Origin: Lobosporangium transversale
Taxonomy: Eukaryota; Mortierellomycota; Mortierellomycetes; Mortierellales; Mortierellaceae
Reading direction: 5' to 3'
Assembly (NCBI RefSeq): GCF_002105155.1
Contig: NW_019028986.1
Coordinates: 816,501-880,500, forward strand
Length of the DNA: 64,000 bases
Shown: positions 33,761 to 64,000 of the stretch, piece after piece
How positions within the stretch are numbered: the first letter of the stretch is position 1
How the letters are laid out: the number at the start of each line of letters is the position of its first letter
Position numbers and translations under genes: made by a program
Notes under the pieces: generated by a model
Seen by the model: only the letters and a program-made list of their open reading frames with translations
What the model was told of the DNA's origin: nothing
The model's database searches: none

Positions 33761-35135
33761 GCAGCAACGGACACAGGGAGTACAAACAAAGAAAGAAAGA
33801 AACAAACAAACAAACAAACAAGCAAGCATTCTGTCGCTCTTCTCTTCTTCTCTCCCTTCTTTTTTTTTTTTTTTTTTTTTTTTTCTTTTGATCTCGCTCT
33901 TACTTGCACTCGTACTTCTACTCTTTATTACTCTTACTCTTACTTACCCTTATATACTTACTTTGCACTTTCTTTGGTTGCTAATCCGTTCATTTTACTT
34001 CTTCTTTCTCATTTCTGCCTAGTTCTGTGTGCGGATGGGCATAGTCAATGTTTGCATGTGTATCGGATGTATCTGGTATAGGATATATGGTATATACATA
34101 TATGGATATGATATATCTGGGTCTTTTTCATCTAATTATGCTTTTAGCCAATGACATTGGGCGTGACTCTTCCCCCCCCCTTTTTCGTTTGTAGCTGCGC
34201 CTAATTGTTCTCATGAATGAATGACGAGAAATGAGAGGGTGAGTAACATTGGAAGAGAAAAAAAAAAAAAAAGTTGAGAGCATTTTTTGGTTGAGGTTCA
34301 ATCATTCAATTGCTGTTGTATCGTGTGTGTTGTGTAGATTAATGAATGAATGGATGCATCAAACAAAAAAGGGTTTGACCATTGAGAAAAAAAAGAAAGT
34401 CTCTTCGTTTTCCCACATGCCCCAAAAAAGACATTTTCCCTCCTCTCTCTCTCACACAACTCTTACTCTCTCTCTCTTTTCTTTCTTTCTTTCTTTCTCT
34501 CTCTCTTCTGTCCTTTTCTTCTCTAATCCTTTTCATCCATTCATTCATTCACTCACTCATTAACTCATTCATTCATTCATTCATTTGTCCTTTTTATTTT
34601 TATTATTCTTATTCTTCATTCATTAAGATCCATCCGTGGATCCTCTCTCTTCCTTTTTATATTGCCTTATTGTTCGACTAGACCCTAACCGACAGGCACC
34701 CTAGCTCGAATTTTAATTGCAATTTCCCTCTCCCTTTTTTATCCTTCGCGACTTTTTTTTTTTATTATTTTTTATATTCAATCATGGCTTACTTCTACTT
34801 GACCTCTGGAGGCCACGTTGGCCGTGAAGTCGATCTAGCATAAGGCACTTTCCTTACAACCCTTACAAATAACAAATAACAAAAAACAAATAACAAAAAA
34901 AATTACCTTCGAAACCCCTTCAAGGCCCAGCACTAAATAACTTGTTCATACCCACCATCCACAACAAAAAAAAAAAAGAAACTTTTATCTTCAATATTTC
35001 TTTTCCATTTCTGGTCCTCTTTTCGGAACCATATCCCAATTGCTTTTATTTATACTTTGGGTCACGTTGCTGATCTCTGTCGGCCCATTCATTCTCCCAT
35101 CACACAAACAAAATTACAAAACTAAAAAAAAAAAA
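33602..35135. other. Divergent intergenic region between fucokinase and GATA genes
   Basis: It holds A/C/G-rich short repeats (acaacg units, about 33640-33780), a T tract at 33861-33884, CT-rich and CATT repeats (about 34440-34600) and a 19-codon upstream ORF. No other gene is seen. It presumably contains both promoters and the GATA 5' leader. Confidence 0.55.
34784..34843 (+). promoter_or_regulatory. Upstream ORF in the GATA-factor leader, 19 codons
   Basis: ATG at 34784 opens a frame encoding MAYFYLTSGGHVGREVDLA, ending in TAA at 34841. It is the only ATG between there and the GATA start at 35136, so scanning ribosomes would meet it first if transcription starts upstream. It could attenuate translation. 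I do not recognise the peptide. Confidence 0.4.
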
Positions 35136-36931
35136 ATGTTTGTCACTACAACTACCAATGGCACCACATCCGACGCGTCGGTTGCTGGATTCAATATCCC
35201 ATGGTTACATAACAACGATAACAACAACAATGATCTGTCGCTCTATCCTCACGATGTCCTTGATTACTCAGTCTTCTCACACGATCCAAATACATTGCCA
35301 TCCTCCTCCTCATTGTCCTCGCCTATCCTTGCTATGACCATGGACATGGACAACTGTACCAGCAACAGTCTACTGAACTTTCACCACTTTTCTGCTCCTA
35401 CTCCTACTCCTGCTTTTGATCTTGATCTTGCTCCTGCCCATGCTCCTGCCCCTGCACTCACGATGCAGTTCCTTCAGGATATGAGCATGGCTGCTTCATC
35501 ATCATCATCCGCTTTCCTGCCTGTGACCACCCCTCAAATCAATCTAGCTTCTTCCGCTACAATGAATGATGACATGTCGCGTCAAGCTGCTCTATTGCAT
35601 TCCTATCTTGCTCATCAGCAACAGCAACAACAACAGCAACAACAACAGCAACAACAACAGCAACAACAACAGCAACAGCAGCAACAACAGCAACAACAGC
35701 AGCAACAGCAACGATGGATCTCTGCTCCCTTAACACAGGAAAATATCCAAGTCATCCAAGCTCAGCAGCAAGCCCAAGCACTGCAGATGGCATTAGAGAA
35801 CCAAAAGAAGCAATCGGAGCTTGAGCAGCATCAACTGCAACAACGACAGTTGAGAGAAATGCAAGAAGCCCAAAAGAGGGAGCAACAAAAGCGAATGATC
35901 CAACAAACAGATGCCCTGAATCTCGCTAGGTATCTTGCACAATCCCAGACTGTGCAACAGCAACAGCAGAGTCAGATCAAACTGGAGCAGGAGCAGAGCA
36001 TTACGGCTTCATCTATGGAGCATGATACTGTCTCCATGTCGTTATCTTCCCCTTCTTCCCCAGCTTCATCGTGCTTATCCTCCTTGGTATCGGAGGCTGG
36101 TGGTAATAGCCCTCTGACTTCGCCCACACTCTCAGAGCGCTCCATTGGTTCGGAAATATCATCAGACTCTGCTGATACTTCAACTACTACCACAACAACC
36201 CCAGCAACTACCGTTGCAGCCAATGCTACAGCTGAGCTTACAGTTGTCAAACATGAATCCCATGTCCCTAATTGCGATGATCCTTTACCATCTGCAACGA
36301 GTACTCGTCAGCTGGAGTGCTTTAATTGCAAGGTGACACAGACACCGCTGTGGCGCAGAACTCCGGATCGCAAGCATTCCCTCTGTAATGCATGTGGGCT
36401 GTATTATAAACAGTATGGAGCACACCGTCCCCTACATGTTCGTCACAAATTACTGGCCATGGCTGATGTCCGCTCGAATACTCTGCCCTATGCTCGACCT
36501 TTATATTCTTCCGGTCGTGGTTCCTCGCCAGTGTCGTCCTTGTCCGATAGTGATTCAGAGTCTGCTGCTACTGTTGCTGCTGCTTCTGGCATCTTGACGG
36601 ATTTGACAAAGATCTATACCGAAGCCTTGGTTCCTGGCCCTGTTACCACTACCTCCACTGCACCACGTTCACCTCCACTGATGACTGCCAAACAAGGGAT
36701 TCAGTGCGTCAACTGTTTGCAGACACAGACCCCACTCTGGCGTAAGAACGAGGCTGGAGAGCCGATCTGTAATGCATGTGGGCTGTACGCAAAACTGCAT
36801 CATCGAGATCGCCCCGTCACGATGCGTAAAGCCATGATTGCCCGACGAAGAAGAGATTGGGGTGGTAACTTGGCACAGCGAGCAGCAGCACAGGCGAAAG
36901 CTGAAGCTGAAGCTCAAGCTCAGGTTCAAGA

Positions 36932-36966
<35 letters not shown>

Positions 36967-37526
36967 ATCAAGTCTCTACTCGAGCTCAAGTTGAGGTTCA
37001 GACTCTGGACCAATTCCAAGCTGAAGCACAGGTGCAGGGACACATGCAAGCAGAGACTTTGTATATGAATCAAAAGAGGATTGAACTCCAACACCAAGAT
37101 TTACCAGTCCTGAACAGCAACCGTATCGATGATCAAACTATGGAAGAGTCCATTGTGGAGGAAATGAGTCGTAGGGCGCAAGAATTGACTGGTCGTCATC
37201 GTCTTTGTTTATCTAACGAAGGGAGGGAGGAGAAGGAGAAGGAAAAGGAGCATACGGCCATGACCACTGGATCCACTTCAGCCTCGAATTGTGGGAAAAG
37301 TACAGTAGCACAAAGTTTGTCCAACAATCTGATTATGGATGAATCCAAATTTGCAGATGTGGTGGGTCAGATGAATGCACATCAGATGAACCGATTTCTG
37401 AGTATTCTTGAGACTCGATGTGGAGTCCTTCGTGAACGTCTTTTGGCATCCACAGAAGTATCCAGATCTGTAGCCTCTGCTTCCGCCACTGCCAATGCAA
37501 CATCACCATTTGATGATTTGTTTTAA
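35136..37526 (+). CDS. GATA-type transcription factor with two zinc fingers and polyGln
   Basis: An intronless frame of 796 residues starting at the first in-frame ATG (35136); the open frame extends upstream but without an ATG. Finger 1 starts at residue 395 (CFNC...CNAC, spacing CX2C-X18-CX2C); finger 2 at residue 524 (CVNC...CNAC, CX2C-X17-CX2C), followed by a basic tail RKAMIARRRRDW. Both contain the TPLWR core that contacts GATA DNA. Residues 161-192 are 32 consecutive Gln. Further Gln-rich segments and a GQ repeat (about residues 600-610) surround the fingers; a C-terminal helix (MNRFLSILETRCGVLRERL) may be a dimerisation element. Two-finger fungal GATA factors include siderophore and nitrogen regulators. 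Position next to urease and purine genes makes a nitrogen role attractive, but that is inference. Confidence 0.85.
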
Positions 37527-37701
37527 AAAGAAAAAGAAAAAAAAAAAGAAAAAAGGAAATATATCATATCGTGTCTGGATAAAGAGTGTTGGGTAAATAT
37601 CTTGATCAGTCCCGAGCAACATGTCACATGTGCGTCTTGTTTATATTAATTTTTCCCTAAAATGTTAGACAATTCAATAAACATCATCTTCACAATCCAA
37701 A

Positions 37702-38862
37702 ATGTCATCGTTACCTCCCATGGCCTCACCATCCCCAGAATCAGAGTCGGAATCAATAACAATAACAGCAACAGAGCCAGTGTCATCACCATTGCCATCC
37801 AGCAAGACATCAACAACAGCGGCGACACCAACGATACCAACGAACATTTCGCCACAGCTTTATGATACCACGATTGTGACAACCCCGTCCTGGCTTCTCT
37901 GGCAATTTCTAGATTCAGCGCTTCCGACAGGGGGGTTTATTGCGTCGAATGGTCTTGAAGCGTTTGCAAAACTTCATCCGGATCAGGCATCACCTCGGGA
38001 TGTGGAGGCCTATGTGAATTGGAGTGTCCATGCATGTGGCTATACCAATTTACCGTTCATTACAGCTGTTTGGAAATTAATGGATGCGTGGGTATTAAGG
38101 GACCAATACGAGTTGAAGACCGAGAAGGGAAAAGAAAGGGCCATGAAGAGTGTGTTGCACAGGATTAGTAATATCGATCGAGAATATGATGTGTTTATGA
38201 ACAATGCGATCCAAAATGCAGCGTCTAGAAAGCAAGGAGATGGAATGGTGATGATGGGGGTGAAGTGTTTTGCAGATCAATTGAATTATAAAAAGGAGAG
38301 TAGTCGACCGGGTGTTTTTGATTATGAAGAGGCAGAAGAAGACGAAGAAGAGGATGATGAAGGAAGAAAAGGGAGCGGAAGGTTCTTTAATGAGCTTGGG
38401 CCGAGTATCCGGATATTGAAATCATTCAAGGCCATGTTGAGGACTGAGGAAGTCGCGGGTCATTATCCAATTGCATTCGCAATGATTGCCAGATTGCTAG
38501 GCTTTGATCTAGGTAAATGTGAAAGTGTGAAAAAGCTCCCCCCCCCCCTTTTTTTTTTGTGGAAAATGTTGCAGTGTTTATTGATTTTTTTTTTTTTCTT
38601 TTTTCTTAATGGGTTATTAGCAACGACAAGGTATCTTCATCTTCATCTTCATGCACGGACACTTCTTTCATCTGCCATTCGTCTGGCTCTAGTGGGACCT
38701 TTTCAAGCACAACATATCATGACGCGATCACAAGCAAAAGCTCGGTTCATTGATGCCAAAACAGCAGATCTAACGATCGAAGATGCAGCCCAAACATTCT
38801 TGGTTGGTGATATCTGTGCAGGAGTCCATGGACGTTTGTGGACAAGACTCTTTAACAGTTGA
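37702..38862 (+). CDS. ureF: Urease accessory protein UreF
   Basis: Two exons join in phase: 37702-38512 and 38621-38862, giving 350 residues. The conserved UreF segment runs from WLLWQFLDSALPTGGFIASNGLEAF through EAYVNWSVHACGYTNLPF, and resumes after the splice with LLSSAIRLALVGPFQAQ. UreF, with UreD and the GTPase UreG, delivers nickel to apo-urease in the cytosol. The first 50 residues are Ser/Thr/Pro-rich. A highly acidic insert (EEAEEDEEEDDEG, about residues 212-224) sits mid-protein, unlike bacterial UreF of about 230 residues. The intron has C and T runs. It lies 175 bases after the GATA gene and converges with MRT4. Confidence 0.88.
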   Translation: MSSLPPMASPSPESESESITITATEPVSSPLPSSKTSTTAATPTIPTNISPQLYDTTIVTTPSWLLWQFLDSALPTGGFIASNGLEAFAKLHPDQASPRDVEAYVNWSVHACGYTNLPFITAVWKLMDAWVLRDQYELKTEKGKERAMKSVLHRISNIDREYDVFMNNAIQNAASRKQGDGMVMMGVKCFADQLNYKKESSRPGVFDYEEAEEDEEEDDEGRKGSGRFFNELGPSIRILKSFKAMLRTEEVAGHYPIAFAMIARLLGFDLGKCESVKKLPPPLFFLWKMLQCLLIFFFFFFLNGLLATTRYLHLHLHARTLLSSAIRLALVGPFQAQHIMTRSQAKARFIDAKTADLTIEDAAQTFLVGDICAGVHGRLWTRLFNS

Positions 38863-40198: not shown

Positions 40199-40912
40199 TG
40201 TTTAATAGGATGAAGAGAATGAAAGTTGAAGGCGATGGAGAGGAGGAGAGGGGGAGGTTTGATGGTAACGATGGTATTGAACTGTTTTCACACAAAAAAA
40301 AAAAAAAAAAAAAAAGAAAGCAAGTGAGAAAGTAAACATAGCGAAGCCACTTTATATATTTGTGACTGTTAGTGGATTAACCTAATTTCTAATTGGGTAA
40401 AAAGAGTTTACATGAATGATTCGGCGCGTCTACGAGAAAGAGTTAAAGCGTTTCTTTTTTTTTTTTTTTTTTTTTTTTGCATGCTCATACTCAAACAAAC
40501 CATCCTTAATACACTCTCAGGATCAGCATACTAAGTTGATCCTCAACTACTGAAAAAATTTCAAAAATGCCTCCTACTATTATCCGAATAAAGGGGCGAA
40601 GGTCGTTTGCGCGATAGGTCGTTTCCGTGATAGATCGTGTGTGGGGAAAAAGTATTAACAACTTATGCATGGGAAAAAAATAATATATCAGCTTTACATG
40701 ATCTTTTGAATCTCTCCTAATGCACAATTTTTATTTTTTTTCCATTTTTCTTATGATCCTCAATTGGTGCTTTTTAGTTCTTCGCTCTTGTCTCTCTCAC
40801 TTTTGCCCTGTCCTTTTATTTTCTTTTATTTTCTTTATTTTCTTTTCTTCTTTTATTACCAATCCTTAAACTCACAAATTGTTATATGATTATATCTATT
40901 TAGTTCAGTAAA
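40199..40912. promoter_or_regulatory. Bidirectional promoter region MRT4/XDH copy 1
   Basis: 714 bases between divergent start codons, with an A tract near 40295-40315, a T tract near 40455-40478 and a CT-rich stretch just before the XDH start. Its counterpart before copy 2 (45523-46162) has diverged considerably. Confidence 0.5.
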
Positions 40913-43900
40913 ATGATGGACTCAGTCGATTATTCTTCTTTCTCAAGCACTCTTCGTTTTTATCTGAACGGGACCGAGGTTATTCTTGAGAGCCCGGATC
41001 CAGACATTACTTTATTGCAGTATGTCCGCTCCATAGGCCTTACAGGAACAAAGTTTGGATGCGCAGAGGGTGGATGTGGTAAGCCTATTTACATCCTTCA
41101 ATGTCTTTTTTTTTCTTTCTTCTTTTTCTTTTCCTTTTTCCTTTTTTCTTTTTTATTTGTCAGGCAAGGGGAGAGAGCAAGGCCTAACTTTGTTATAATG
41201 TATGAACTGACAAAAGAGGATTCACTTTCCTATTCTCTGCTGTGGCTGTAATGGGGATAGGTGCATGTACGGTTATGGTCTCGTCTTACGACCGAGTAAC
41301 AAAACACATCAAACATCTGAACGTCAATGCTTGCTTAACCCCTCTGTGCTCTGTCGATGGTAAGCATGTCATCACGATTGAAGGTCTAGGCAACCACAAG
41401 GACCCTCATCCAGTGCAGGAACGCATTGCTCTTTGCTTTGGGTAAGTCTCGCTTCTGCCACATCATCCATGCAATCTAATCCATGCAAACTTTTGTCGTG
41501 CAAAGGCCCACAACTAAAACTTTTACTACTGTTTTTTCTTTATGCAAATAAATTATAATAAAACAACAACAATAACAACAACACTATAAATATCCGTCCG
41601 GGAATCTCAACCAGCTCACAATGTGGATTCTGTACTCCTGGCATTGCCATGTCTCTTTACACATTCTTGCGCAATAATGAGAGACCATCAGAGTATGAGA
41701 TCGAAGACTCCTTTGATGGAAACCTCTGTCGCTGCACAGGCTACAGACCCATCTTAGATGCAGCCAAGTCTTTTGCTGTTCCTCAAAAAGCAAAGATCGT
41801 GAATGGTTTCAAGGATGGCTTTACGAACCGCAACAGCAATAGTGCGGTCCCAGATGGATGTTGTGGCAAAGGTGGAGCGAACGGTGTTGATGGTTGTTGT
41901 AAGCGGTTCGATGTTTCATCTACAGTCCCACAAGAAAGTTCTTTTCAATTCCCTTCTGTCTTGTTCAAGACATATGACCCTACACAGGAGCTTATATTCC
42001 CACCTCAACTTATGAAGGTGGGTATTAAGCCGCTTCATTTCCGAGGTCGAAAGACGCAGTGGTTCCGTCCTACAACCTTATCACAGGCACGAGCCATCAA
42101 AGCAGCTTTCCCACATGCCAAGTATGTCGGAGGCAACACCGAAGTCGGTATCCAGAAGAAGTTCAAGCATGCAGCCTACTCTCCACTGATATACCTACAT
42201 GACATCACAGAGCTGCAAGGGATCCGTTTTACATCTGAAGAGATGATCATTGGTGCTAATGTGACAATTGCCAACTTCCAAAAGGCTCTCGAAGATGGAC
42301 AAAAGAAGGTAGCAGAGCATCAGGTGCCTGTTCTACATGCCTTCTTAGCCAACATCAAGCATTTTGCAGGTCGTCAGATCCGGAATGCTGCTTCTGTTGC
42401 TGGCAATATTGCGACTGCATCTCCGGTCTCAGCTCTGAACCCTATCTTTATCGCTTCCAACTCTACATTCAGCATCCTTTCTTCCAACCAGTCTGCGGAT
42501 GCATCAACAGCAGCTCGTGTGGTGCCTGCTACAGAGTTCTTCCAAGGCTGTAGCAAGACTGCATTGAATCCAGAGACCGATATCTTGACAGAGATCCACA
42601 TCCCATTGACGCGTCCAGACGAGTATATCCGTGCATTTAAGCAGACTAAGCGACGCGATGACGATACTGCAATTGTCTCGGCTGCTATCCGAGTCCGGCT
42701 ATCACCTGAAGATCATAAGGTCATTGAGAGCTCATTTGTATATGGCAACATGACCAGTTTCACCTGCCAAGCTGTCAAGACCTCAGCACGCTTGAAAGAT
42801 AAGAGGTGGGGAGATGAGAGTGTCTTGAGCATGGTCCTCGAGAGTCTTGATGAAGAGCTCCCTATGCAAGTCTCGGCACCTGGTGGGATGCCTGAATACC
42901 GGAGAGCGCTTGCTAAGTCATTATTTTTCCGGTTCTGGTGGGATGTGGTTGAGAAGCGAGGACTTTCTGTCCAACATGACCATGGTAACTTAAAGCTGTT
43001 GACAAGCGAGATCCATCGACATGTCTCTCGTGGAACTCAAGATGCTAAAGCAGCTGTGCGGAATGCAGAGACAGAGGTTGTTGCGAAGGGCATAGCAGCC
43101 ATCTCTGCCATGAAACAAGCAACTGGAGAAGCAAGATATACAGGTAAAGCAAAGCATTCAAATATTGTATTGCTATTGCCATTATACGCTAACTCCCTTT
43201 ATTCTCTTTTCTTTCATTTGTAAAAAAAATGAAAAATCAAATCAAATCCAATAATAATACAGACGATATCCCAAGCTCTAAAGATGAGTTGTATGCAGCT
43301 TTAGTGCTTTCTACAAGAGCCCACGCAAAGGTTATAAGTGTCGATGCCAGTAAAGCATTGGCATATCCAGGAGTCAAGGACTATATTGACCATACTAGAG
43401 TTCCTGGTAGTAACGACTGGCATGCAGCTTTGGCCTCTGACGAGACTATTTTTGTCACAGACACGGTTCTCTGTGTCGGACAGATCATTGGGCTTGTCAT
43501 TGCAGATAGCCAAGCCATTGCTCAAGAAGCAGCTCAAAAAGTCAAGGTTGAATACTCAGACCTCCCAGCTATTGTCACGATCGATGAAGCTATCGCAGCT
43601 GATTCATATCTATCAGCTGAACCCCGGACTATCATCAAAGGGGATGTAGATGCAGCCTTCAAGACATGTGCCAAAGTATTTGAAGGTGAAACTCGAGTTG
43701 GAGCACAGGAGCATTTTTACTTAGAGACACACTCAGCCATTGCCAGCTACTCTGAAGGAGAGGTAGAAATCATTGCTGCAACACAATATGCGGATGGGGC
43801 ACAAGCGGCTGTGGCAGATACATTGGGTCTGAGCTCTAACAAGGTTGTTTGTAAGGTCAAGCGTGTGGGTGGTGCATTTGGCGGAAAGGAATCACGAGGT

Positions 43901-45490
43901 GTACCACTGATCTGTGCGATATCAGTAGCATCCTATTGTCTTAAGAAGCCTATTCGAATTGTGCTCGACCGCAACGAGGATATGATAATGACAGGTCAGC
44001 GGCACCCATTCAAGGGTAAATGGAAGGTTGGACTGGACCAAGATAACAAGTTGGTAGCTCTAGATATCCAGCTGTATTCGAATGGAGGATTCAGTCGTGA
44101 TTGCTCTGCTCCAGTCATGGATCATGCTCTGACCCATATTGACAGTGTATATTATTTTTCGAACATACGAACTGTTGGCAAGTGCTGCCGAACAAACCTA
44201 CCAAGCAATACATCCTTCCGTGGGTATGGAGGCCCTCAAGTAACCCTTATAACGGAGTCATTCATGAATGAGGTTGCAGAGCAGCTCAATATTCCTGTGG
44301 AGGAGCTGCGAGAGAAGAACTTTTACAAAGAGGGACAGAAAACACACTATAACCAAGTCCTTGAGGACTGGCATATCCCAGAGGGATATTACCAGCTCAA
44401 GGAAAAAGCACGGTACGATGAACGTCGGCTTGCAATACAAGAGTTCAACAAGTTGTCGAAATGGCGCAAGCGTGGTATTTCTCTAATTCCGACCAAACAT
44501 GGTATTGGGATGAATTCTCGTTTTATGAATCAGGCAGGAGCATTGGTCCATATTTATCTTGATGGATCTGTGCTGGTAATGCATGGAGGTGTCGAAATGG
44601 GACAAGGACTACATACAAAAATGATCCAGGTTTGCGCAGAGGTGCTGAAGGTCCCAATGGATCTCATCCATACAATGGACATGTCAACTGACAAAATCCC
44701 CAATGCGATACCAACAATAGCGTCGATCTCTTCAGATACGAATGGCATGGCAGTTAAAGATGCAGCAGAGAAGCTGTATGAGCGACTTCAGTCTTACCGC
44801 AATCCCAAAGGGAAGAACCTCTCATGGCGTGAAGCTGTCATACAAGCGTATCAAGATGGAGCACATCTAAGTGCGACTGGATTTTACGTTGTTCCAGAGA
44901 TTGGACACGATTGGGAAAAGAATGAAGGAAAGCTTTGTCACTATTACACAACGGGAGTAGCAATATCAGAGGTAGAAGTAGATATGTTGACAGGAACATA
45001 TACAATTCTTCGGTCAGATATCAGTATGGACTTGGGTAGATCACTTAACCCTTCGATTGACATTGGACAGATTGAGGGAGGGTTTATACAAGGAGTTGGA
45101 TATGTCACCACGGAGGAGTCCTTGTTTTCACCCGATGGGATGCTGTTGACCCAAGGACCAGGTTCATACAAGATCCCAGGATTCAAGTGTATTCCGCAAG
45201 AGATGAACATCTCATTCTTTGAAGATGTGACACACGAAAGTATAAAGACTATCTTCAAGTCGAAAGGAATTGGAGAACCACCATTGCTTCTTGGCAGTTC
45301 AGTGTACTTCGCGATCCGAGATGCAGTACGATATGCACGACAGGACCATGGGCATACTGAAGGCACCTTTTCATTACCGATCCCAGCGACTCCGGAGAAG
45401 GTCCGTATGGCTGTTGGAGATGTGATCGCAGAGAGCAGTCGACTGGTTGCAAAACCAGGAGAGAAGCCATCAGCAGTGCTGAGTAATTAA
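40913..45490 (+). CDS. Xanthine dehydrogenase-family molybdenum hydroxylase, tandem copy 1
   Basis: Four exons join in phase: 40913-41078, 41261-41441, 41615-43143 and 43263-45490, giving 1,367 residues. Order of domains: 2Fe-2S ferredoxin ([13 protein letters not shown]), second 2Fe-2S ([20 protein letters not shown]), FAD domain ([28 protein letters not shown]) and the molybdopterin domains ([33 protein letters not shown]). Catalytic Glu (bovine 1261) and substrate Glu (bovine 802; here Glu835) are present. The purine-binding Arg880 position is His913, Phe914 is Tyr947, Phe1009 is Met1042 and Thr1010 is Asn1043. Hence xanthine may not be its substrate; a different N-heterocycle, such as nicotinate as in Aspergillus HxnS, is possible. 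Homology numbering was done by eye against remembered bovine XDH. Confidence 0.88.
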
Positions 45491-46162
45491 GGTTCCTAGG
45501 GGAAGGAAAAAAAAAAAAAAAAGATAACGATATGATACAGCTTATTTTCTCATATTTAATAATTTAATAGCTGTAGTAACAATAGTAATAGTATGAAAGG
45601 CCTGAGCCTAAAACAATTAAGCAATAATGGATAAGTAGCAATATTGAGACTTGAAGGTCAGGAGTACTCGACACAGTTTTTGTGTGTATACTTGAATGCT
45701 TATGTTGTTTCTCTTGCCTTCGGGCCTTCAGGATTTGCTGTTACAGAGCTGTTTCACATAATCAAACACACCCATGGCTGTTGAATAACCTAATTTCAAT
45801 TGGGCGTATTTCCGTGAAGGAAAGAGCAGAAGAGAGTCAGAGCGCGTTATTTTTTTGGCATGTCAAACAAGGCGCAGCCCATCCCTCGGAAATTGTCCTG
45901 CCCTCAGATTTTGGTTTATTTTTCCAGAATTCATCATGTTCATGCAAAATATCGCACCAGTGTGATCCTCATTCCTTGTTTCTTATTGCTTTCTCTCTTG
46001 CCTCTTACTTTTTTCTCCATCCTCTTCTTTTCTTTTTTTTTTTTTTTTTTTTTTTTTTCCTTTTTCCTTTTTTTTCTTTTCCTTTTTCCTTTTTTTTCTT
46101 TTTACCAATCCTTATACTTAAAAAGCCCTGCTACTTGTCTATGTCTATTGTAGTTCAGTATA
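45491..46162. promoter_or_regulatory. Intergenic region and promoter of XDH copy 2, with duplication junction
   Basis: After the copy-1 stop a short A tract (about 45509-45522) is followed by sequence matching MRT4 intron 1 (from about 39921). This marks the tandem junction. The rest is a diverged copy of the copy-1 upstream region, ending in a T-rich tract (46030-46090). It contains no MRT4 exon. Confidence 0.55.
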
Positions 46163-49100
46163 ATGGTGAACTCAGTTGATTTTTCTTCATTCTCGAGTAC
46201 TCTTCGTTTTTATCTGAATGGTACCGAGGTTATTCTTGAAAACCCGGACCCAGACATTACTTTATTGCAGTATGTCCGCTCCATAGGCCTTACAGGAACA
46301 AAGTTTGGATGCGCAGAGGGTGGATGTGGTAAGCCTATTTACATCCTTCAATGTCTTTTTTTTTCTTTCTTCTTTTTCTTTTCCTTTTTCCTTTTTTCTT
46401 TTTTATTTGTCAGGCAAGGGGAGAGAGCAAGGCCTAACTTTGTTATAATGTATGAACTGACAAAAGAGGATTCACTTTCCTATTCTCTGCTGTGGCTGTA
46501 ATGGGGATAGGTGCATGTACGGTTATGGTCTCGTCTTACGACCGAGTAACAAAACACATCAAACATCTGAACGTCAATGCTTGCTTAACCCCTCTGTGCT
46601 CTGTCGATGGTAAGCATGTCATCACGATTGAAGGTCTAGGCAACCACAAGGACCCTCATCCAGTGCAGGAACGCATTGCTCTTTGCTTTGGGTAAGTCTC
46701 GCTTCTGCCACATCATCCATGCAATCTAATCCATGCAAACTTTTGTCGTGCAAAGGCCCACAACTAAAACTTTTACTACTGTTTTTTCTTTATGCAAATA
46801 AATTATAATAAAACAACAACAATAACAACAACACTATAAATATCCGTCCGGGAATCTCAACCAGCTCACAATGTGGATTCTGTACTCCTGGCATTGCCAT
46901 GTCTCTTTACACATTCTTGCGCAATAATGAGAGACCATCAGAGTATGAGATCGAAGACTCCTTTGATGGAAACCTCTGTCGCTGCACAGGCTACAGACCC
47001 ATCTTAGATGCAGCCAAGTCTTTTGCTGTTCCTCAAAAAGCAAAGATCGTGAATGGTTTCAAGGATGGCTTTACGAACCGCAACAGCAATAGTGCGGTCC
47101 CAGATGGATGTTGTGGCAAAGGTGGAGCGAACGGTGTTGATGGTTGTTGTAAGCGGTTCGATGTTTCATCTACAGTCCCACAAGAAAGTTCTTTTCAATT
47201 CCCTTCTGTCTTGTTCAAGACATATGACCCTACACAGGAGCTTATATTCCCACCTCAACTTATGAAGGTGGGTATTAAGCCGCTTCATTTCCGAGGTCGA
47301 AAGACGCAGTGGTTCCGTCCTACAACCTTATCACAGGCACGAGCCATCAAAGCAGCTTTCCCACATGCCAAGTATGTCGGAGGCAACACCGAAGTCGGTA
47401 TCCAGAAGAAGTTCAAGCATGCAGCCTACTCTCCACTGATATACCTACATGACATCACAGAGCTGCAAGGGATCCGTTTTACATCTGAAGAGATGATCAT
47501 TGGTGCTAATGTGACAATTGCCAACTTCCAAAAGGCTCTCGAAGATGGACAAAAGAAGGTAGCAGAGCATCAGGTGCCTGTTCTACATGCCTTCTTAGCC
47601 AACATCAAGCATTTTGCAGGTCGTCAGATCCGGAATGCTGCTTCTGTTGCTGGCAATATTGCGACTGCATCTCCGGTCTCAGCTCTGAACCCTATCTTTA
47701 TCGCTTCCAACTCTACATTCAGCATCCTTTCTTCCAACCAGTCTGCGGATGCATCAACAGCAGCTCGTGTGGTGCCTGCTACAGAGTTCTTCCAAGGCTG
47801 TAGCAAGACTGCATTGAATCCAGAGACCGATATCTTGACAGAGATCCACATCCCATTGACGCGTCCAGACGAGTATATCCGTGCATTTAAGCAGACTAAG
47901 CGACGCGATGACGATACTGCAATTGTCTCGGCTGCTATCCGAGTCCGGCTATCACCTGAAGATCATAAGGTCATTGAGAGCTCATTTGTATATGGCAACA
48001 TGACCAGTTTCACCTGCCAAGCTGTCAAGACCTCAGCACGCTTGAAAGATAAGAGGTGGGGAGATGAGAGTGTCTTGAGCATGGTCCTCGAGAGTCTTGA
48101 TGAAGAGCTCCCTATGCAAGTCTCGGCACCTGGTGGGATGCCTGAATACCGGAGAGCGCTTGCTAAGTCATTATTTTTCCGGTTCTGGTGGGATGTGGTT
48201 GAGAAGCGAGGACTTTCTGTCCAACATGACCATGGTAACTTAAAGCTGTTGACAAGCGAGATCCATCGACATGTCTCTCGTGGAACTCAAGATGCTAAAG
48301 CAGCTGTGCGGAATGCAGAGACAGAGGTTGTTGCGAAGGGCATAGCAGCCATCTCTGCCATGAAACAAGCAACTGGAGAAGCAAGATATACAGGTAAAGC
48401 AAAGCATTCAAATATTGTATTGCTATTGCCATTATACGCTAACTCCCTTTATTCTCTTTTCTTTCATTTGTAAAAAAAATGAAAAATCAAATCAAATCCA
48501 ATAATAATACAGACGATATCCCAAGCTCTAAAGATGAGTTGTATGCAGCTTTAGTGCTTTCTACAAGAGCCCACGCAAAGGTTATAAGTGTCGATGCCAG
48601 TAAAGCATTGGCATATCCAGGAGTCAAGGACTATATTGACCATACTAGAGTTCCTGGTAGTAACGACTGGCATGCAGCTTTGGCCTCTGACGAGACTATT
48701 TTTGTCACAGACACGGTTCTCTGTGTCGGACAGATCATTGGGCTTGTCATTGCAGATAGCCAAGCCATTGCTCAAGAAGCAGCTCAAAAAGTCAAGGTTG
48801 AATACTCAGACCTCCCAGCTATTGTCACGATCGATGAAGCTATCGCAGCTGATTCATATCTATCAGCTGAACCCCGGACTATCATCAAAGGGGATGTAGA
48901 TGCAGCCTTCAAGACATGTGCCAAAGTATTTGAAGGTGAAACTCGAGTTGGAGCACAGGAGCATTTTTACTTAGAGACACACTCAGCCATTGCCAGCTAC
49001 TCTGAAGGAGAGGTAGAAATCATTGCTGCAACACAATATGCGGATGGGGCACAAGCGGCTGTGGCAGATACATTGGGTCTGAGCTCTAACAAGGTTGTTT

Positions 49101-50740
49101 GTAAGGTCAAGCGTGTGGGTGGTGCATTTGGCGGAAAGGAATCACGAGGTGTACCACTGATCTGTGCGATATCAGTAGCATCCTATTGTCTTAAGAAGCC
49201 TATTCGAATTGTGCTCGACCGCAACGAGGATATGATAATGACAGGTCAGCGGCACCCATTCAAGGGTAAATGGAAGGTTGGACTGGACCAAGACAACAAG
49301 TTGGTAGCTCTAGATATCCAACTATATTTGAATGCAGGATACAGTTTAGATTATTCTCCTGCAGTCATGGACCGTGCTCTGACTCATAGCGAGGGTGTAT
49401 ATTATTTTTCGAACATACGAACTGTTGGCAGGTGCTGCCGAACAAACCTACCAAGCAATACATCCTTCCGTGGGTTCGGAGGACCACAAATCACCCTCAT
49501 AGCGGAATCATTCATGAATGAGGTTGCAGAGCAGCTCAATATTCCTGTGGAGGAGCTGCGAGAGAAGAACTTTTACAAAGAGGGACAGAAAACACACTAT
49601 AACCAAGTCCTTGAGGACTGGCATATCCCAGAGGGATATTACCAGCTCAAGGAAAAAGCACGGTACGATGAACGTCGGCTTGCAATACAAGAGTTCAACA
49701 AGTTGTCGAAATGGCGCAAGCGTGGTATTTCTCTAATTCCGACCAAACATGGTATTGGGATTGATCCCCATTTTATGAATCAGGCAGGAGCATTAATCCA
49801 TATTTATCTTGATGGATCTGTGCTGGTAACGCATGGAGGTGTCGAAATGGGACAAGGACTACATACAAAAATGATCCAGGTTTGCGCAGAGGTGCTGAAG
49901 GTCCCAATGGATCTCATCCATACAATGGACATGTCAACTGACAAAATCCCCAATGCGATACCAACAATAGCGTCGATCTCTTCAGATACGAATGGCATGG
50001 CAGTTAAAGATGCAGCAGAGAAGCTGTATGAGCGACTTCAGTCTTACCGCAATCCCAAAGGGAAGAACCTCTCATGGCGTGAAGCTGTCATACAAGCGTA
50101 TCAAGACGGAGTACATCTAAGTGCAACTGGGTTCTACAAACATCCACAACTTGGACACGACTGGGAAAAGAATGAAGGGCATATTTTTCATTATTACACA
50201 ACGGGAGTAGCAATATCAGAGGTAGAAGTAGATATGTTGACAGGAACATATACAATTCTTCGGTCAGATATCAGTATGGACTTGGGTAGATCACTTAACC
50301 CTTCGATTGACATTGGACAGATTGAGGGAGGGTTTATACAAGGAGTTGGATATGTCACCACGGAGGAGTCCTTGTTTTCACCCGATGGGATGCTGTTGAC
50401 CCAAGGACCAGGTTCATACAAGATCCCAGGATTCAAGTGTATTCCGCAAGAGATGAACATCTCATTCTTTGAAGATGTGACACACGAAAGTATAAAGACT
50501 ATCTTCAAGTCGAAAGGAATTGGAGAACCACCATTGCTTCTTGGCAGTTCAGTGTACTTCGCGATCCGAGATGCAGTACGATATGCACGACAGGACCATG
50601 GGCATACTGAAGGCACCTTTTCATTACCGATCCCAGCGACTCCGGAGAAGGTCCGTATGGCTGTTGGAGATGTGATCGCAGAGAGCAGTCGACTGGTTGC
50701 AAAACCAGGAGAGAAGCCATCAGCAGTACTGAGTAATTAA
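45523..50740. repeat. Tandem duplication unit, copy 2
   Basis: Second unit of the duplication, offset 5,250 bases for the coding part. By eye I saw no difference between 41000-44043 and 46250-49293, introns included. Differences resume only in islands 44044-44257, 44512-44580 and 44857-44941 (copy-1 coordinates), and one base near the stop. Confidence 0.8.
46163..50740 (+). CDS. Xanthine dehydrogenase-family molybdenum hydroxylase, tandem copy 2
   Basis: Four exons at the same offsets as copy 1: 46163-46328, 46511-46691, 46865-48393 and 48513-50740, giving 1,367 residues. All cofactor motifs are as in copy 1. In the substrate pocket it keeps Arg913 (bovine Arg880) and Phe947 (Phe914), so it is closer to classical XDH than copy 1. 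It has Ile1042 for Phe1009 and Asp1043 for Thr1010, and Tyr906/Ala909 at positions matching bovine Leu873/Ser876 (Cys/Pro in copy 1). The N-terminus differs slightly (MVNSVDF versus MMDSVDY). It may be the purine hydroxylase of the pair, or a second specialised enzyme. It ends 178 bases before the Tim17-like gene. Confidence 0.88.
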
Positions 50741-52049: not shown

Positions 52050-52878
52050 CATTGATAATGAGCTCTTTTATATAATAAACCATTTTTCCTATTCATTATA
52101 ATCGAAAGTGGGTTTTTGGGCTCAAATACACTATGAATTTGGTCCCAAAAATGAATGAATTGACCTTCATAAAAGATGTATTTAAAAATATTGGCGCACA
52201 TGATATCAACTTTATGCTGATTTGTCCTCCACTTGGCAGTATTCAAGAGATGTCAGGATGTCATAATATCGTTTGAGTTTCTTCAAGTTCGTGTTTGGTA
52301 AATGTTTTATCCTTATTAAAAAAGAGGAAAGGGGAACAGGCTTCAGCTTTTTGGCTTGTGCCCTCACCTCCACCGAGAACGACTGGCGTCTTTTGTTAAC
52401 ACTTTTTTTTTTTTTTTTTGGACATGGTGTTTATAAGAGTGAGGACGCAATTTGTTTATTGGTATCATGTGCGTCAATATATGTGACTTTAAATTTCACG
52501 TCTTAAAATATACCTTTTATAGAGGTCAATTCATTCATTTTTGGGACCCTTTCGACGATAAAAATTAAAAATTTACATCTTGACTCTTCTCACTTGTTCT
52601 GCTTTGCCATTAAAATTTGCCACCATCTTGTTGTCCATAATCTCATTTATTCTCTAAAACGCGCTTCTTTGTCATCAAGCTTTTTATTTCAAACTAATAA
52701 TCTCTCATTCTTTTCATTGCGATCCCCTTGACTAAAGATTCTTCATTTCTTCTTATCTTTTCTTTTCTTCTCATCTTTTCATTTCTTATCTTTTTTTTTT
52801 TTTTCTTTTTTCTTTTTTTTTTCCTTTTTTACTTTTTCACTTTCTTTCTTTCGTACACGCGACATACACCGAGAAATA
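52050..52878. other. Intergenic, promoter of RIF1
   Basis: Nothing gene-like is seen. The last 130 bases before the RIF1 start are strongly C/T-rich (CTTTT units), as is common for fungal core promoters and leaders. Confidence 0.55.
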
Positions 52879-55800
52879 ATGGATTCACTTACGAGCAAGA
52901 AGAGAAAAGCAGAAATCACGATACTGGACGCAACATCTACTGCCAAAACGTCTCAATCTTCACCTTCCCCTAAGAGCCGTCGGGTGAGGTCGACTGGTGA
53001 TATTAACGATAACGCTAGTACTAACGACAGCAACAACAACAGTGAAAAAGTATCTCCATCAAAATCAAGGCTTCAGCATGGGCAGGATCTATCACATCTA
53101 CAGCGGCCTTCTTTTCAGGTCACTGATCATCCAAAGCAGCCACCATTGAACCCTAAGTTTGAGCGCCCTTATACTAGGTCTAGCAGCTTGCTCGACCATA
53201 GTCCTGACTCCTCAAAGCCTCAAGAGAATGTTGCAGCTCTAAAGTCAACCAGAAAAAAACATAGACATGTAGAGGAGTCAGGAGTGCCCGCATCATCACA
53301 GTCATCGAAAATTGCGTCATCATCTAAAAGCTCGAAGCGAACGTCTGGAGAAGACCGACGCCAGTCAACGGACGAGCCGGAAGGCATTTCAGCCATAGCA
53401 CCCACCACGGCACCTCAAGAATCACCAAACAACAATGTCCAGGAAAGCCATAGTACGCCATCAAATGCTGTATCCCACAAGCCTTTGGCGGCAACTGATG
53501 TTCCTGTTTCTATACCTGCTCAGATTGCAGTCGTAGAAGCTTCTCCAAGCAAGCGCGTCGCATTCTCTCCTTACAGACAAAAGTCTCCATTGTCGATCCC
53601 CAGCGCGGCGTCTACTCCCAAATTGAAAGGGATTCTTAAGTCACCAGCTCCGACACGTGTTTTGAACCGAGACCATGAGCTTGATAGCACTGAAATGAGA
53701 AACCCTTTTGTTGTAACTACAGAGAGCGATTATTCGGAAAGAAAATCCTTTGTAAAGGAAGCTCTTGAGTCACTGCAGTCTGAGGATGCTCAAATACGCT
53801 CATCAGCCTACCTTAACTTGCAGGCCAAGTTCAGAGAGGGCGATGAAAACCCTTTCTATCTGAAGGAAGTCAAAGAGTCAATGCGATTGTTTGCGAGGTA
53901 TCTCATGAGGGATTTAGATCTAAATAGCCCTCCGAGTTTGATTCAGGCGACACTGAAGTGCACAGGCTACTTTCTTTTCAACCAGAGAATTGTCGCGATG
54001 TTTACTTCAAAAGAAATCGAGGCTCTACTTATACAAATCTTACATTTGGTCAATGCGGCGGATGAGAAACCAACTTGTAATTTGGCGATCTGGACTCTTT
54101 CCTCTACCAGAATCCCTCCAAGACTCTTGTATCCGTTTCTCCCGCAAATGATCGAGGCTTTCTTGGACAATCTGGAGTCCCGATTCAAGTCGTCAAGTAT
54201 TACGAGTGAATCCTTAGGAGGCATGTTTTCCGTATTTACACAATTTCCGAATGAAATTGTGGCAACAGTCCAATCATGGCTCATACCTGTACTTACGAGG
54301 TTAATATCACCCATTCCTGGTATCCGGTCAAGGGCGCTGGAGCTGTTGACAATGGCGATCCCTAAGTTGATTGAAAAGGAGGATCCGAGGCGAATACAGG
54401 CCGTCAACGAATTCATGGATGATTATAGCACTGAGTTCCTTGAGGTTTTGACAGCAAACTTTCTGGATGCTAATGATGGTAAGACGACATGGACTTTTTT
54501 TCTTCTTCTTCTTCAATGTTAAAAAGGATGTTTGGTTAATATTTAAGAGTTTCTCTTGTAACATTAGAGGTTTACGCCGTCACTGTCTGGGGCGCTCTGG
54601 TCACATTAATGGGAAAGAAATTACAAAAAAGTCCATTGCTCAACCCCATGCTAAAGATGGTGGAGGTAATATAATCGGCAATATTGGTGTTGCATTTTGA
54701 CACATCCTTTAACTATTCTAACTTTTTTTTGTTTTGTTTTTCCTCTTTTACTTTTTACGCATATAATGCTTTGATCTCGACATATCTATCACAAATAGAA
54801 ATGTTTTAATTCGACATCATCCGCGAGGACAGAAATCAAAATGGCTGCGTTTCAAGCATGGACGTAAGCCAAGGACTCTAAGATCTTTTTTTTTTTTCCG
54901 CTCGGTATAACGCCAAATAATGGCTGATGCAATGTTTGAAACTTACATTTTATTTTTATTTTTTGTTTTTTATTAGGCGACTCATATATAATTTTGCTAT
55001 TGGTGGACATATCGCAAACGAAAAGCCTCTTAAACTAATGCTTACCCCATTCGCAAACTGGTAGGTTTTGCTCCGCACTTATGCTTCGTCCATCCAATAC
55101 TTTGAGTCTTTGCCCCCAAAAGGAAAAACTTTATGTGGACTCTAATACCCATCATTATTGTTGCTCTTGTCCCTGTTATAGCCTTTTTAACGAAAGGCAC
55201 AAGCGCATTCGACTAGCATGTTTCAACGCCTGGATATCCCTTATTTATGCCCTCGGTTCCAGGCTATCAAAGGTATGTTGAGACATATTTCGAGCAGAAG
55301 TTCAGTGCTACTAATTTGAAGACAAAAAATGCGATCTCTAACGAGCTGCCTTCATCTTGCGCTTATCACAGCACGCAGATCAGGTCCTATTTCCTCAGCT
55401 GAAACTTGCGATTGTGGACGAGTCTGAGCATGTCCGTGACCTCGCGCTCAGACTCATTGTGGCTTTGATCTCTAATTCTGGTGGCCAAGGTATAGAGCGT
55501 TGATGATTGCTAGTAAACAATATAATAACTAGTTCAAAAAGATAATTTTAAAATCGCTGGTAATTAACTGTAGTCTTAATACTTCGATAGACCTTGTGGA
55601 AGGGCGCCAGAGTATAGTACCTGGATCAATCACATTTTCGGATCTAGGCTGTGCAGAGGCATCTTGGGTACGTACGGACTTGCTGGATATTTGTCTGGAC
55701 TGTGTTTACCAAACTGTTGGCCTACAACATAGGATTCAGGAAGCAGCACGCGAAGATTGGAAGGTACTTGGATTGACGGAGCTACCTCTGCTTACGCAGC

Positions 55801-59524: not shown

Positions 59525-62500
59525 TTAAGTGTTCTTACGGAGGATAGTTCGCATATTCCATTTGCGGCTACTTGGGCTAGAGACATGATCGGGGCTAGAG
59601 GCTAAGGTCTCTGCAATGTTAGAGACTTCTTTCCAAAGAGGCTTCATCTCGTAAGGCATACGGATAACATCATCGTCACCATCGTCATTGTTGTCGCGGT
59701 GGTGATCGCCGCTGCCAGGCTTGTCATCTCCAATAATGCCACTAATCCTTCTGTACCAACCATCAGCTTGTTCGGCCACAATAGCCTTGGCTAAAGCTTT
59801 TCGTTTAGTCTGACCTGCCTCACCTGTCCAACTTTCAAGCAATCGAAGGACCATCTGCTTACGCTCCTCTTTTCTCTTGGCAACGCTTGCAGTCTGAGCT
59901 GCAGTTGCATGTTGAAGTTCCTGCTGATGTTGAGCTGACAATGATGATGACGAAGAAGAGGAAGAAGGAGAATCATTCTTCAAAGCCTTTGATGCCCAAC
60001 GGATAGCATCCTTGATATTTTGTTCATCATTAATGAACAAATCATTCTCAAGCATCCACTGAAGGGACTTGATTCTTCCAAAGAAAGCTGCATATGCCAA
60101 TGCTGTGCCATGAGGATAGACATCTTTAGAACTCTTGACCCGAGTATCTGCACCTCTGGAATATAATTCTTGAACCATCAATAAACAGTCACGCCCAGCC
60201 ATTAATCGCATCAGACTCGTCTCTTTCCAATGATTCTTGGCATCCACTTGAGCACCCCTATCCAAAAGGAAACGCATTGCTTGCAAAACATCCCGTTCAT
60301 TGGCCTCCAATTCTTGCGCAGAGATTACATTCATCATCAGCAATCGCCATGTATCATCTTGTGTGTTGAGTAAACCACCTTCTTCACAAAGGACATGAAG
60401 TGGGGTTCGTTTGTAGAACGAATCTGCACAATGAACTTGAGCACCTCGTTGATTGACCAAATATTCGATCAGCTCATAGGGTTGACTAGATGCACAGGCA
60501 CTACTGAGGATAGACCGACCATCGAATTTCCAAGGAGTGTTGATTAATCCAGGCTCCTTATCCAGATGATATTTAACTAAACTCAAATTGCCCTTCTTGG
60601 CACACTGCCATACATTCTCCAATCCACCAGCCTTGGTACTGTTCATGAGACGGCCACCAGTGCCCATACTACTGCTACCACTCATGCCACTTAGCATTGT
60701 GGAACGAGATTGCATTGAAGATGTAGCTGAAGGTGCCATAGTGGACATGGTTCCTGCATGAGAGATCATTCCTGTAGATCGAGTCGAAACTGAGGCAAGT
60801 GAGCTAGGTCGATTACGCCGGTCTGGGAGGATAGACCGGAAGGAAGACGACTTGATTGTCGAAATAGCAAACAAGTTGGATTTTGATGATGATAATACTG
60901 GTGCAGACGAATCAAATGATGGTGATACTGTAGGATCTGCTGGCGGTGGAGACGAATCTGAGAATGAGGACGTGGGCGCAATTGCATCATCATTTTCTTC
61001 AACAGGCTCGACTTCTTCAGCGATCGCCTCTGAAATAACTCGATGTGTAGCCGTCTCAGGTGGAGTCAAAGTTGTCGTTGTTGTAATGGTAGTGGTACTG
61101 GCAGTAGCAGTAGCATTAGTGTTAATACCTGAAACCGTTGTCGTAGCCGCTGCGCTTGTTGGAATCGTGAACGTCTCTACATGAACATCCTCAATAGAAT
61201 CAGTCGCTCCCATGTCCTCTGGTACCCCATCATCACCTTGCTGAGAACCTTCGACTGCAGACAAACCTTCCACCTCAGTTTCTACTTGGGGAACTGTAAC
61301 ATCTTGAGCAGTAGAGGATGCTACTGTGGACAAATCTACACCACAAATCTCTTTAAGAAGTGCAGTCATTGCAGCTGTAGGGCGAAGAGGCAAGCGATCC
61401 AAACGTTCATATGAGACAATGGAGCCAGCGTAAAGCAAAGCACTGGTAATCTCCACATTGTTTGTATGAATCGCATAATCCAGAGCTTATGGCACATAAA
61501 AGAAGAAAAAGAAAAAAGGTTAATTCGGAGCACTTCAAATTTCAACTAATGCTCAGACATGTTCATCCCGCTATACGTTTTTTTTTTTTTTTTTTGTTTT
61601 TTGTTGGCTTGTTTGCTTTACCTGTGAGCCCCGAATCATCTTCAATGTCCAGCTCGATACCTTCCTCAACCAAGATGTCGACCCCTGCTCGATATCCCAA
61701 AAGGACTGAATTATGCAGCATGGTTGATCCGTTCAACTGACTCTGGCCAGAGATATCTACAGATGATGGGAACTCTGGGACTCGAGCCAATAAGGTAAAA
61801 TAAGTAGGATTACTGTGACTACCATTGCTATTGCTGTTGCTGTTATTGTTAGTGCTGTTAGATCCGGCTGCATTACCACCAAATCCGTCTCCAAGTCCAC
61901 CACCCATGGTTGTACCATTCTCTTGCTGCTGGATCATAGTTCTTAACATCTGTTCCAATTCTAGCTGTGCTTGTTCATTCGTGAATTCGTACGTCTTTTC
62001 TGATGGTAAGAATTGTCCATTATGATGAATCCAAAGTCGAACAGTCTCTGGTCGAGGATATCGTGGAGTTGTGCACTCGATGTAGAATGGATTGATATCA
62101 ATGACTTTTGCATGATCTCGTCCAAACATTGGAGTCATGCCCCGGACAAAATTCTGTCCGATGATGATCACATGGTTCTCTTGACAAATTGGGCCCTTTT
62201 GAGGCGCCAATGATTTGATCATTGGTGGTTGTCGAACTGAGGGCGTTACATCTCCATCTAATGGTGGAGGAGTCATTGGAGGAGGATGATGTTCATCACG
62301 TCGTTTCTTGACCGGACCTGTGTCATAGCCATTAGTGTTGTTACTATAATGATTTTGAGGTGATCCAGGTGGACTAGAGGTCTTTGCAGGTGAAGGTGGT
62401 CCTCCTCCAGCCGCACTGCCACTTTCGTGTAACGATGGAGATTGCGATTTCCTAAAAAAAAAAAAAATGGTTTCCAATTGGTTAGCGTACGATGCGAGAA

Positions 62501-64000
62501 AGCACTCAAAATTTTTCTGAATCACATGAGTAAAATTAATGCATTTTAAACAGCTTCTCATGTGGTGGGTCAGCAGACAGTGACCACATGTGCTCGCCTT
62601 GCACAAATTTGTTAATTGGTTTTAACCAAGAAATGCTTTGCCGAAAGAAAAAAAAAAGGCGCGTGTCCAACCATTCATTTCGTAGCGCTTTTGCTTTCTT
62701 TTTTTTTTTTTTTTTTTAAAACTTACGAAGTCTTTTCTGCATGTTTGGACATAGATCTAGATCCTTTGTCTCGTCCATGGGAAGCATAGATCTCAACTTC
62801 ATCACTCCGGCCATGATAGATTACCAAGGGTCCAACATGATTAGGGTTTCCACCCATCATACTGGTTAACTCGATTTCAAAACTGAACTTTGTTCCAGGT
62901 CCACGATGATGGGACGTACTGGCACACCAAGCTGAAGCAATCAACTTGATCTGTCCGTTTCGAAGCTGAACCATCCCATTCTCATCAATCATCGGTTTAC
63001 CGTTCACACCCGGATGAAATCTCAAGATCTCTGGGGTCTTGTCTTTACACCGTCCACAGGGTAGAACGGGTCGATGTTCAGGTTCCAAATATGTTGTCAA
63101 TTTCATGGAGAGAACGTCTTCTTCCTGTGCGCTCGTGGGCATTGACATCACCTCAGCCGATCGTTTATTCGAGCCATTCAGTGTGATTCGGCCATTCGGA
63201 TCCGCTCGACAGGGTAAGACAATGTTTTCATTAGGAATACGAAGGTATCGGTACCGTTCTTGATCTTCCTCTGTTAAATGAATGTTCAAATAGAACTGTT
63301 GACCTTTACGGAACTCGCCATCGTCATCTTTCTTGGATGACGTGAATACCTTGAGATGCTTTATGCCTGTGAATTCTACCTCATCCTTGAGAGTAGGAAG
63401 AGAGAAGAAAGAAAGAAAGATAAAGATGAGATATACACGTGTATACATTAAATGATGAGTATACAACACGAAATTGCCTCACTAATATCAATATATTTTT
63501 ACAAACTTACCCGAGAGTTCTCGTCGAAGCTTGTATGGGTAAGAGCCGGTGTCGAATATACGGCTTGTTCCTCAGTATGCGCTGTAGGCTCACTCCATGG
63601 GGCTATTGAATATTAATAAAATATTGAATAAAAGATAAGAAACAAGGATTAATAAATTAAATAATGAAATGTTTGATCATAAAACAGATAAACACACACA
63701 AAAAGGGAAGAGCCGCAAATGAAGAAAAAAAAAGTAGACGTTTTTGTTTTGACGGCCAATGGGCAGAAAAGAATGAATGAATGAATGATATGTGCTCTAC
63801 AATTCGAATATGCATATGTATGAATGCGTGTGTGTTTTTTGCTTGTATATGGGATGGCGTAAACAGATTAAAAGGTGTGAAGTGTTCTTACCCCAGATAA
63901 GTGGATTTTCCACAGGCGAAGTTTTGATTGGCATATCCGGTGAACAGCTCTGTTGTTGAACATATTCTGGGATGTGAAGAGGAGAAGGGGAGCTATTGAA
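59525..64000 (-). CDS. SPT23: SPT23/MGA2-like transcription factor (IPT and ankyrin domains), 5' end outside window
   Basis: Exons visible on the minus strand: 63892-64000 (partial), 63511-63602, 62727-63385, 61622-62451 and 59525-61485, joining in phase for 1,216 residues. An Rel-like N-terminal domain appears (RPVLPCGRCKDKTPEILRF, then FEIELTSMMGG). A basic NLS-like PVKKRR, an IPT/TIG domain at about visible residues 362-445 (KGPICQENHVIIIGQNF; YIECTTPRYP) and two ankyrin blocks follow (about 535-595 and 850-1070). MGA2/SPT23 in yeast are ER-anchored and released by proteasomal processing to induce fatty-acid desaturase OLE1. Here the C-terminus (MRTILRKNT) has no membrane segment. A GTAAGA donor at the very end leaves open an extra small exon, but none with a hydrophobic run was found before RIF1. 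Confidence 0.8.

Follow-up and report, generated by a model that had tools for sequence, protein, structure and literature searches.

Tandem XDH-like genes of Lobosporangium transversale are identical over most of their length and diverge in three segments rich in substrate-pocket residues

The window, which here means the whole 64,000-nucleotide stretch of Lobosporangium transversale DNA that was analysed, carries two intact XDH-like genes that are head-to-tail neighbours on the same contig, at an offset of 5250 bp. A database protein of L. transversale is copy 2, letter for letter, and its seven precomputed Pfam domains (entry P0001) give the domain set of the XDH family, in which a single chain of about 1350 aa combines Fe-S, FAD and molybdopterin domains. 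The protein of copy 1 is the same except at the N-terminal edge and in three internal segments, called islands in the following, and the catalytic residues Glu1261 and Gln767, as well as Glu802, are retained in both copies. The two genes were compared base by base at the offset of 5250 over 40911-45490, and 58 of the 72 differences in this span fall inside the three islands. The features are as follows, all on the plus strand:

40913-45490, plus strand: copy 1, intact XDH-like gene, 1367 aa, spliced translation without internal stop
40913-41078, 41261-41441, 41615-43143 and 43263-45490, plus strand: exons of copy 1, introns GT..AG
46163-50740, plus strand: copy 2, intact XDH-like gene, 1367 aa, same four-exon structure as copy 1, shifted by 5250
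40911-40999, plus strand: diverged 5' edge of copy 1, 13 differences (partner 46161-46249)
41000-44043, plus strand: homogenised body, 3044 bp, no difference, three introns included (partner 46250-49293)
44044-44257, plus strand: island 1, 30 differences (partner 49294-49507)
44512-44580, plus strand: island 2, 8 differences (partner 49762-49830)
44857-44941, plus strand: island 3, 20 differences (partner 50107-50191)
44942-45477, plus strand: homogenised 3' part, no difference

The stretches between the islands (44258-44511 and 44581-44856) contain no difference either, and a single isolated one is found at 45478. All three introns, of 182, 173 and 119 bp, are identical between the copies. 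Homology stops just past the stop codon at 45488-45490, and the upstream flanks resemble each other only in simple repeats and in stretches that are about 75% identical. An earlier note on this DNA had reported a body without any base difference, introns included, and divergence in three islands, with the same limits as listed above, and both observations hold base by base. The longest identical run, at 3044 bp, compares with at most 662 bp in 2000 random scatters of 72 differences.

Divergence at synonymous and replacement sites, estimated by the Nei-Gojobori method, follows the same mosaic. The first 29 codons have a dS of 0.55 and a dN of 0.06 (ratio 0.11), and the islands a dS of 0.34 and a dN of 0.13 (ratio 0.38); in the body dN is 0 and the one silent difference lies in the codon straddling the edge of island 1, and the 3' part beyond island 3 has neither synonymous nor replacement differences. 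The peaks are seen at silent as well as at replacement sites, against a low background. As dS is close to zero in the body and the islands and the 5' edge are diverged, the duplication is old and the body was overwritten recently; by the same contrast, the islands preserve older divergence and are not recent hot spots. Interlocus gene conversion, which the earlier note had proposed, has almost certainly homogenised most of the gene pair in recent time, and has probably done so repeatedly. Introns and synonymous sites are identical throughout the body, next to islands with a dS of about 0.3 and a 5' end with one of 0.55.

A recent duplication without conversion was rejected because the 5' edge, the islands and the flanks are old. 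Another donor for the islands is not supported, since the copies are joined at 100/100 in a tree of 22 sequences built from the island columns only, with branches of 0.23 for copy 1 and 0.12 for copy 2. The island 1 DNA of copy 1, the island used as query, matched nothing further than the two copies themselves. Because the island columns unite the copies at this support, their divergence arose inside the Lobosporangium lineage.

The locus had been described earlier as a pair of XDH copies. The two XDH-like genes are indeed there, but the frame of an ordinary pair is incomplete, given a third XDH elsewhere in the genome and the position of the window copies in a faster clade. A protein search of the genome (42.7 Mb, 127 contigs) found three XDH-like places, the third of them on contig C82 at about 232614-236499 and 65% identical over the C-terminal part. 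The C82 enzyme has a canonical pocket, with Asn768, Leu873, Arg880, Phe914, Phe1009 and Thr1010 retained, and by these residues the gene is probably the ordinary XDH of L. transversale, with ordinary purine oxidation as its role. Each homologue search scored 8000 candidates and listed its best 120, and 187 proteins were listed overall; the alignment consists of the bovine chain and 48 sequences, namely the two window copies, the C82 protein and, from the 187 listed proteins, P0006-P0050, and 32 of the 48 entered the tree.

The 26 Mortierella-type rows of this 32-row tree form two clades. The slower one, with C82, has 13 rows and a support of 93/88, and the faster one, here named XDH2, includes both window copies and has 13 rows and a support of 100/99; P0010, P0011 and P0013 fall in the canonical clade, the one with C82. 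The window copies share a stem of 0.31 and are sister to Mortierella claussenii, and among the best 120 of each homologue search there was no second Lobosporangium cluster. The other XDH2 members (P0006-P0009, P0012, P0014, P0016, P0017, P0021, P0024 and P0026, each row standing for at least one listed sequence) have lost Asn768, Thr1010 and Pro1076 in 10 of 11 cases each, the exceptions being P0016, P0008 and P0014, respectively. They keep Arg880 and Phe914 throughout (11/11 each), Phe1009 in 10 of 11 and Glu802 in 9 of 11, with Asp in its place in P0006 and P0024. Contrary to the trend of the clade, Pro1076 is present in both window copies. Copy 1 is alone in the 48-sequence alignment in having His880, a position at which P0044 has Trp, and also in having Tyr914.

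The substrate pocket was described by 22 ligand-contact positions of xanthine oxidase, taken from Table 4 of PMC10956095 and from positions given in PMC8348919; residues that PMC10956095 gives for further poses docked into the human structure did not enter this list. The islands, which make up 125 of the 1367 codons, contain 11 of the 22 contacts (2-4 expected), on lists that come from inhibitor and docking papers located through the names of residues lying in the islands. When three islands were placed at random 50000 times, they took in 11 or more contacts in 0.16% of the placements across the whole protein and in 1.0% of those confined to the Mo domain, and when the fixed island pattern was slid along, the observed overlap was reached in 21 of 1367 shifts, or 21 of 742 for the Mo domain. 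The earlier note had also placed the differences preferentially on active-site residues, and this is borne out inside the islands: the copies differ at 8 of 11 contact positions and at 21 of the 114 others (p = 0.00036), so that 8 of the 29 island replacements are on contacts. The excess persists without Phe1150 (7/10 vs 22/115, p = 0.0014) and with the contact list of one paper alone (7/9 vs 22/116, p = 0.0005).

Island 1 holds contacts 873, 876, 880, 910 and 914 (bovine numbering), four of which differ, with copy 1/copy 2 pairs of C/Y at 873, P/A at 876, H/R at 880 and Y/F at 914. Island 2 holds 1009, 1010, 1011, 1013 and 1014, three of which differ (M/I at 1009, N/D at 1010 and S/P at 1011). 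The six residue pairs that had been named before (873, 876, 880, 914, 1009 and 1010) are all correct against the bovine chain, and two further differing contacts are added to them: 1011, and 1150 in island 3, an island that the earlier note had left unexplained. There, bovine Phe1150 is Cys in copy 1 and Phe in copy 2, and this single residue, taken from a docking study, is what links island 3 to the pocket. The remaining 11 of the 22 contacts lie outside the islands and are the same in both copies, which also share departures from the canonical pocket outside the islands (Tyr768, Gly771, Gly1008 and Ile1078).

Selection on the pocket, and not the chance placement of conversion tracts, is the likely reason why the islands have stayed apart. 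With slightly less assurance, the following mechanism is proposed. The genes arose by tandem duplication within XDH2, the Mortierella-type branch of XDH paralogues, and recent, probably repeated, interlocus conversion would have homogenised most of their length; conversion over the three segments with residues of one substrate pocket would be disfavoured by selection, presumably as the two copies depend on different pockets, and the islands would survive. More speculatively, and with belief leaning somewhat against it, continuing conversion might give both copies a common chassis, made up of the electron-transfer domains and the cofactor site, with selection separating two pocket sets over three segments, to yield two specificities unlike each other and unlike known XDHs. 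Against selection stand an island dN/dS below 1, the half of the contacts that lie outside the islands and are identical, and the sampling of one genome. The comparison of dN/dS inside and outside the islands, suggested by the earlier note, bears out old divergence within them and next to none outside, but it gives no ratio above 1 that would prove positive selection: the value is 0.38 for the islands and 0.54 for the 11 contact codons (dS 0.72, dN 0.39), the latter from few sites.

It can be argued instead that the mosaic arose by chance, an explanation regarded as unlikely. Several tracts, or a single one with patchy mismatch repair, would have left three segments unconverted, the old divergence in them would reflect ordinary, partly relaxed constraint, and the link with the pocket would be coincidental or due to a naturally variable pocket. 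The island dN/dS of 0.38 agrees with this, as do the variation of contacts 768, 873, 1010 and 1076 among other XDH2 members and the 21 slides of the fixed pattern that equalled or beat the observed overlap. However, the copies differ at contacts much more frequently than elsewhere in the islands, Arg880 and Phe914 are invariant in the other members of the clade, and conversion would have had to miss three separate segments in a 0.9-kb stretch that is otherwise perfectly identical.

Divergence that persists under conversion has known parallels. In the human red and green opsin genes, introns are homogenised and divergence peaks around the sites that determine function (PMC3924837, after Teshima and Innan 2008). 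Like the XDH pair, these are tandem paralogues with homogenised introns and local divergence; the opsin peak surrounds the sites that set the functional difference, and the XDH peaks are enriched in contact positions that may do so. The opsin sites are of known function and their pattern is confirmed in other primates, whereas the XDH pair is an enzyme with three peaks of putative functional effect, seen in one genome. In the copepod Tigriopus californicus, GOT1p1 and GOT1p2 keep divergent regions despite apparently continuing conversion (PMC3728101). These are also paralogues of a metabolic enzyme with regions of high divergence under conversion; their case has population data, and that of the XDH genes has islands linked to the ligand-contact residues of one pocket. 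A divergence peak under conversion is a known phenomenon, and what is new here is the enzyme, the three segments that carry the contacts of one pocket, and the XDH2 branch. A literature search found nothing on these XDH genes.

Whether copies 1 and 2 use two different substrates is put at even chances. Of the residues that mark an XDH using xanthine (Arg880, Phe914, Phe1009 and Thr1010), copy 1 keeps none (H/Y/M/N) and copy 2 keeps two (R/F/I/D). According to PMC5746545, mutations at the Arg880 equivalent in Aspergillus nidulans alter specificity and abolish xanthine use, and hypoxanthine activity remains in such mutants (PMC3624778). As copy 1 has His880, it should be poor on xanthine; with Tyr for Phe914 and Cys for Phe1150 as well, it would most likely hydroxylate xanthine poorly and prefer another heterocycle or a hypoxanthine-like compound. 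Copy 2 retains Arg880, Phe914 and Phe1150, yet with Ile1009 and Asp1010 it is probably not an ordinary XDH either.

Purine hydroxylases I and II of A. nidulans (HxA and HxnS) resemble the window pair as a duplicated fungal XDH of which one has shifted specificity. In HxnS an additional Ala separates Phe1009 from Thr1010, and both Phe1009 and Arg880 are retained (PMC5746545); the insertion and Phe1009 are absent from both window copies, and Arg880 is also absent from copy 1. A nicotinate hydroxylase of HxnS type was rejected for both copies because of the missing Ala insertion. In aldehyde oxidase, which derives from XDH, Glu802 and Arg880 are both unconserved (PMC5746545), a signature that does not match the window genes, as Glu802 is found in both copies and Arg880 in copy 2.

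The pocket of copy 1 might also be degenerating, with the rest of the gene kept intact by conversion from copy 2, although such a loss of function is improbable. Copy 1 departs at the near-universal residues Arg880, Phe914 and Val1125, and its island branch is the longer one (0.23 vs 0.12); in a relative-rate test of the two copies over the islands against M. claussenii, with 12 unique changes in copy 1 and 4 in copy 2, the excess of copy 1 was not significant (p = 0.077). Its reading frame is intact, however, dN/dS is well below 1, and otherwise-invariant island positions are mostly kept, copy 1 departing at 2 of 26, one of them common to copy 2, and copy 2 likewise at 2 of 26. An assembly artefact, in which the consensus homogenised or mis-joined two near-identical copies, could yield perfect identity over 3 kb but is highly improbable in this assembly, which we take to be PacBio, given flanks that differ on both sides, diverged 5' edges, a window free of N, both copies on one contig with intact frames, and three contact-rich segments, which a collapse at random should not have left untouched.

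If selection on two pockets is the right explanation, hardly any neutral difference has survived conversion and the few residues that still differ are likely to set specificity; the pair would also point to a branch of Mortierella-type XDH whose pocket has departed from the canonical one.

A GATA zinc-finger ORF (34941-37526) and a UreF-like urease accessory ORF (37681-38862) lie a short way upstream of the two genes; their presence fits nitrogen scavenging and a possible nitrogen-metabolism neighbourhood, without being a demonstration of it. Downstream of the pair are an ORF with a Rif1 N-terminal domain (window 52732-54522) and, on the minus strand, ORFs with ankyrin repeats and an IPT/TIG domain (window 59525-62621). 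Between the pair and the Rif1 ORF, at window 52141-52548, there is an element about 0.4 kb long whose inverted ends measure 46 nt and are 89% complementary. Diverged relatives occur on other contigs, in a search that scored 15 candidates and gave 34 match rows, counting self matches, and the element looks like a member of a MITE-type transposon family.
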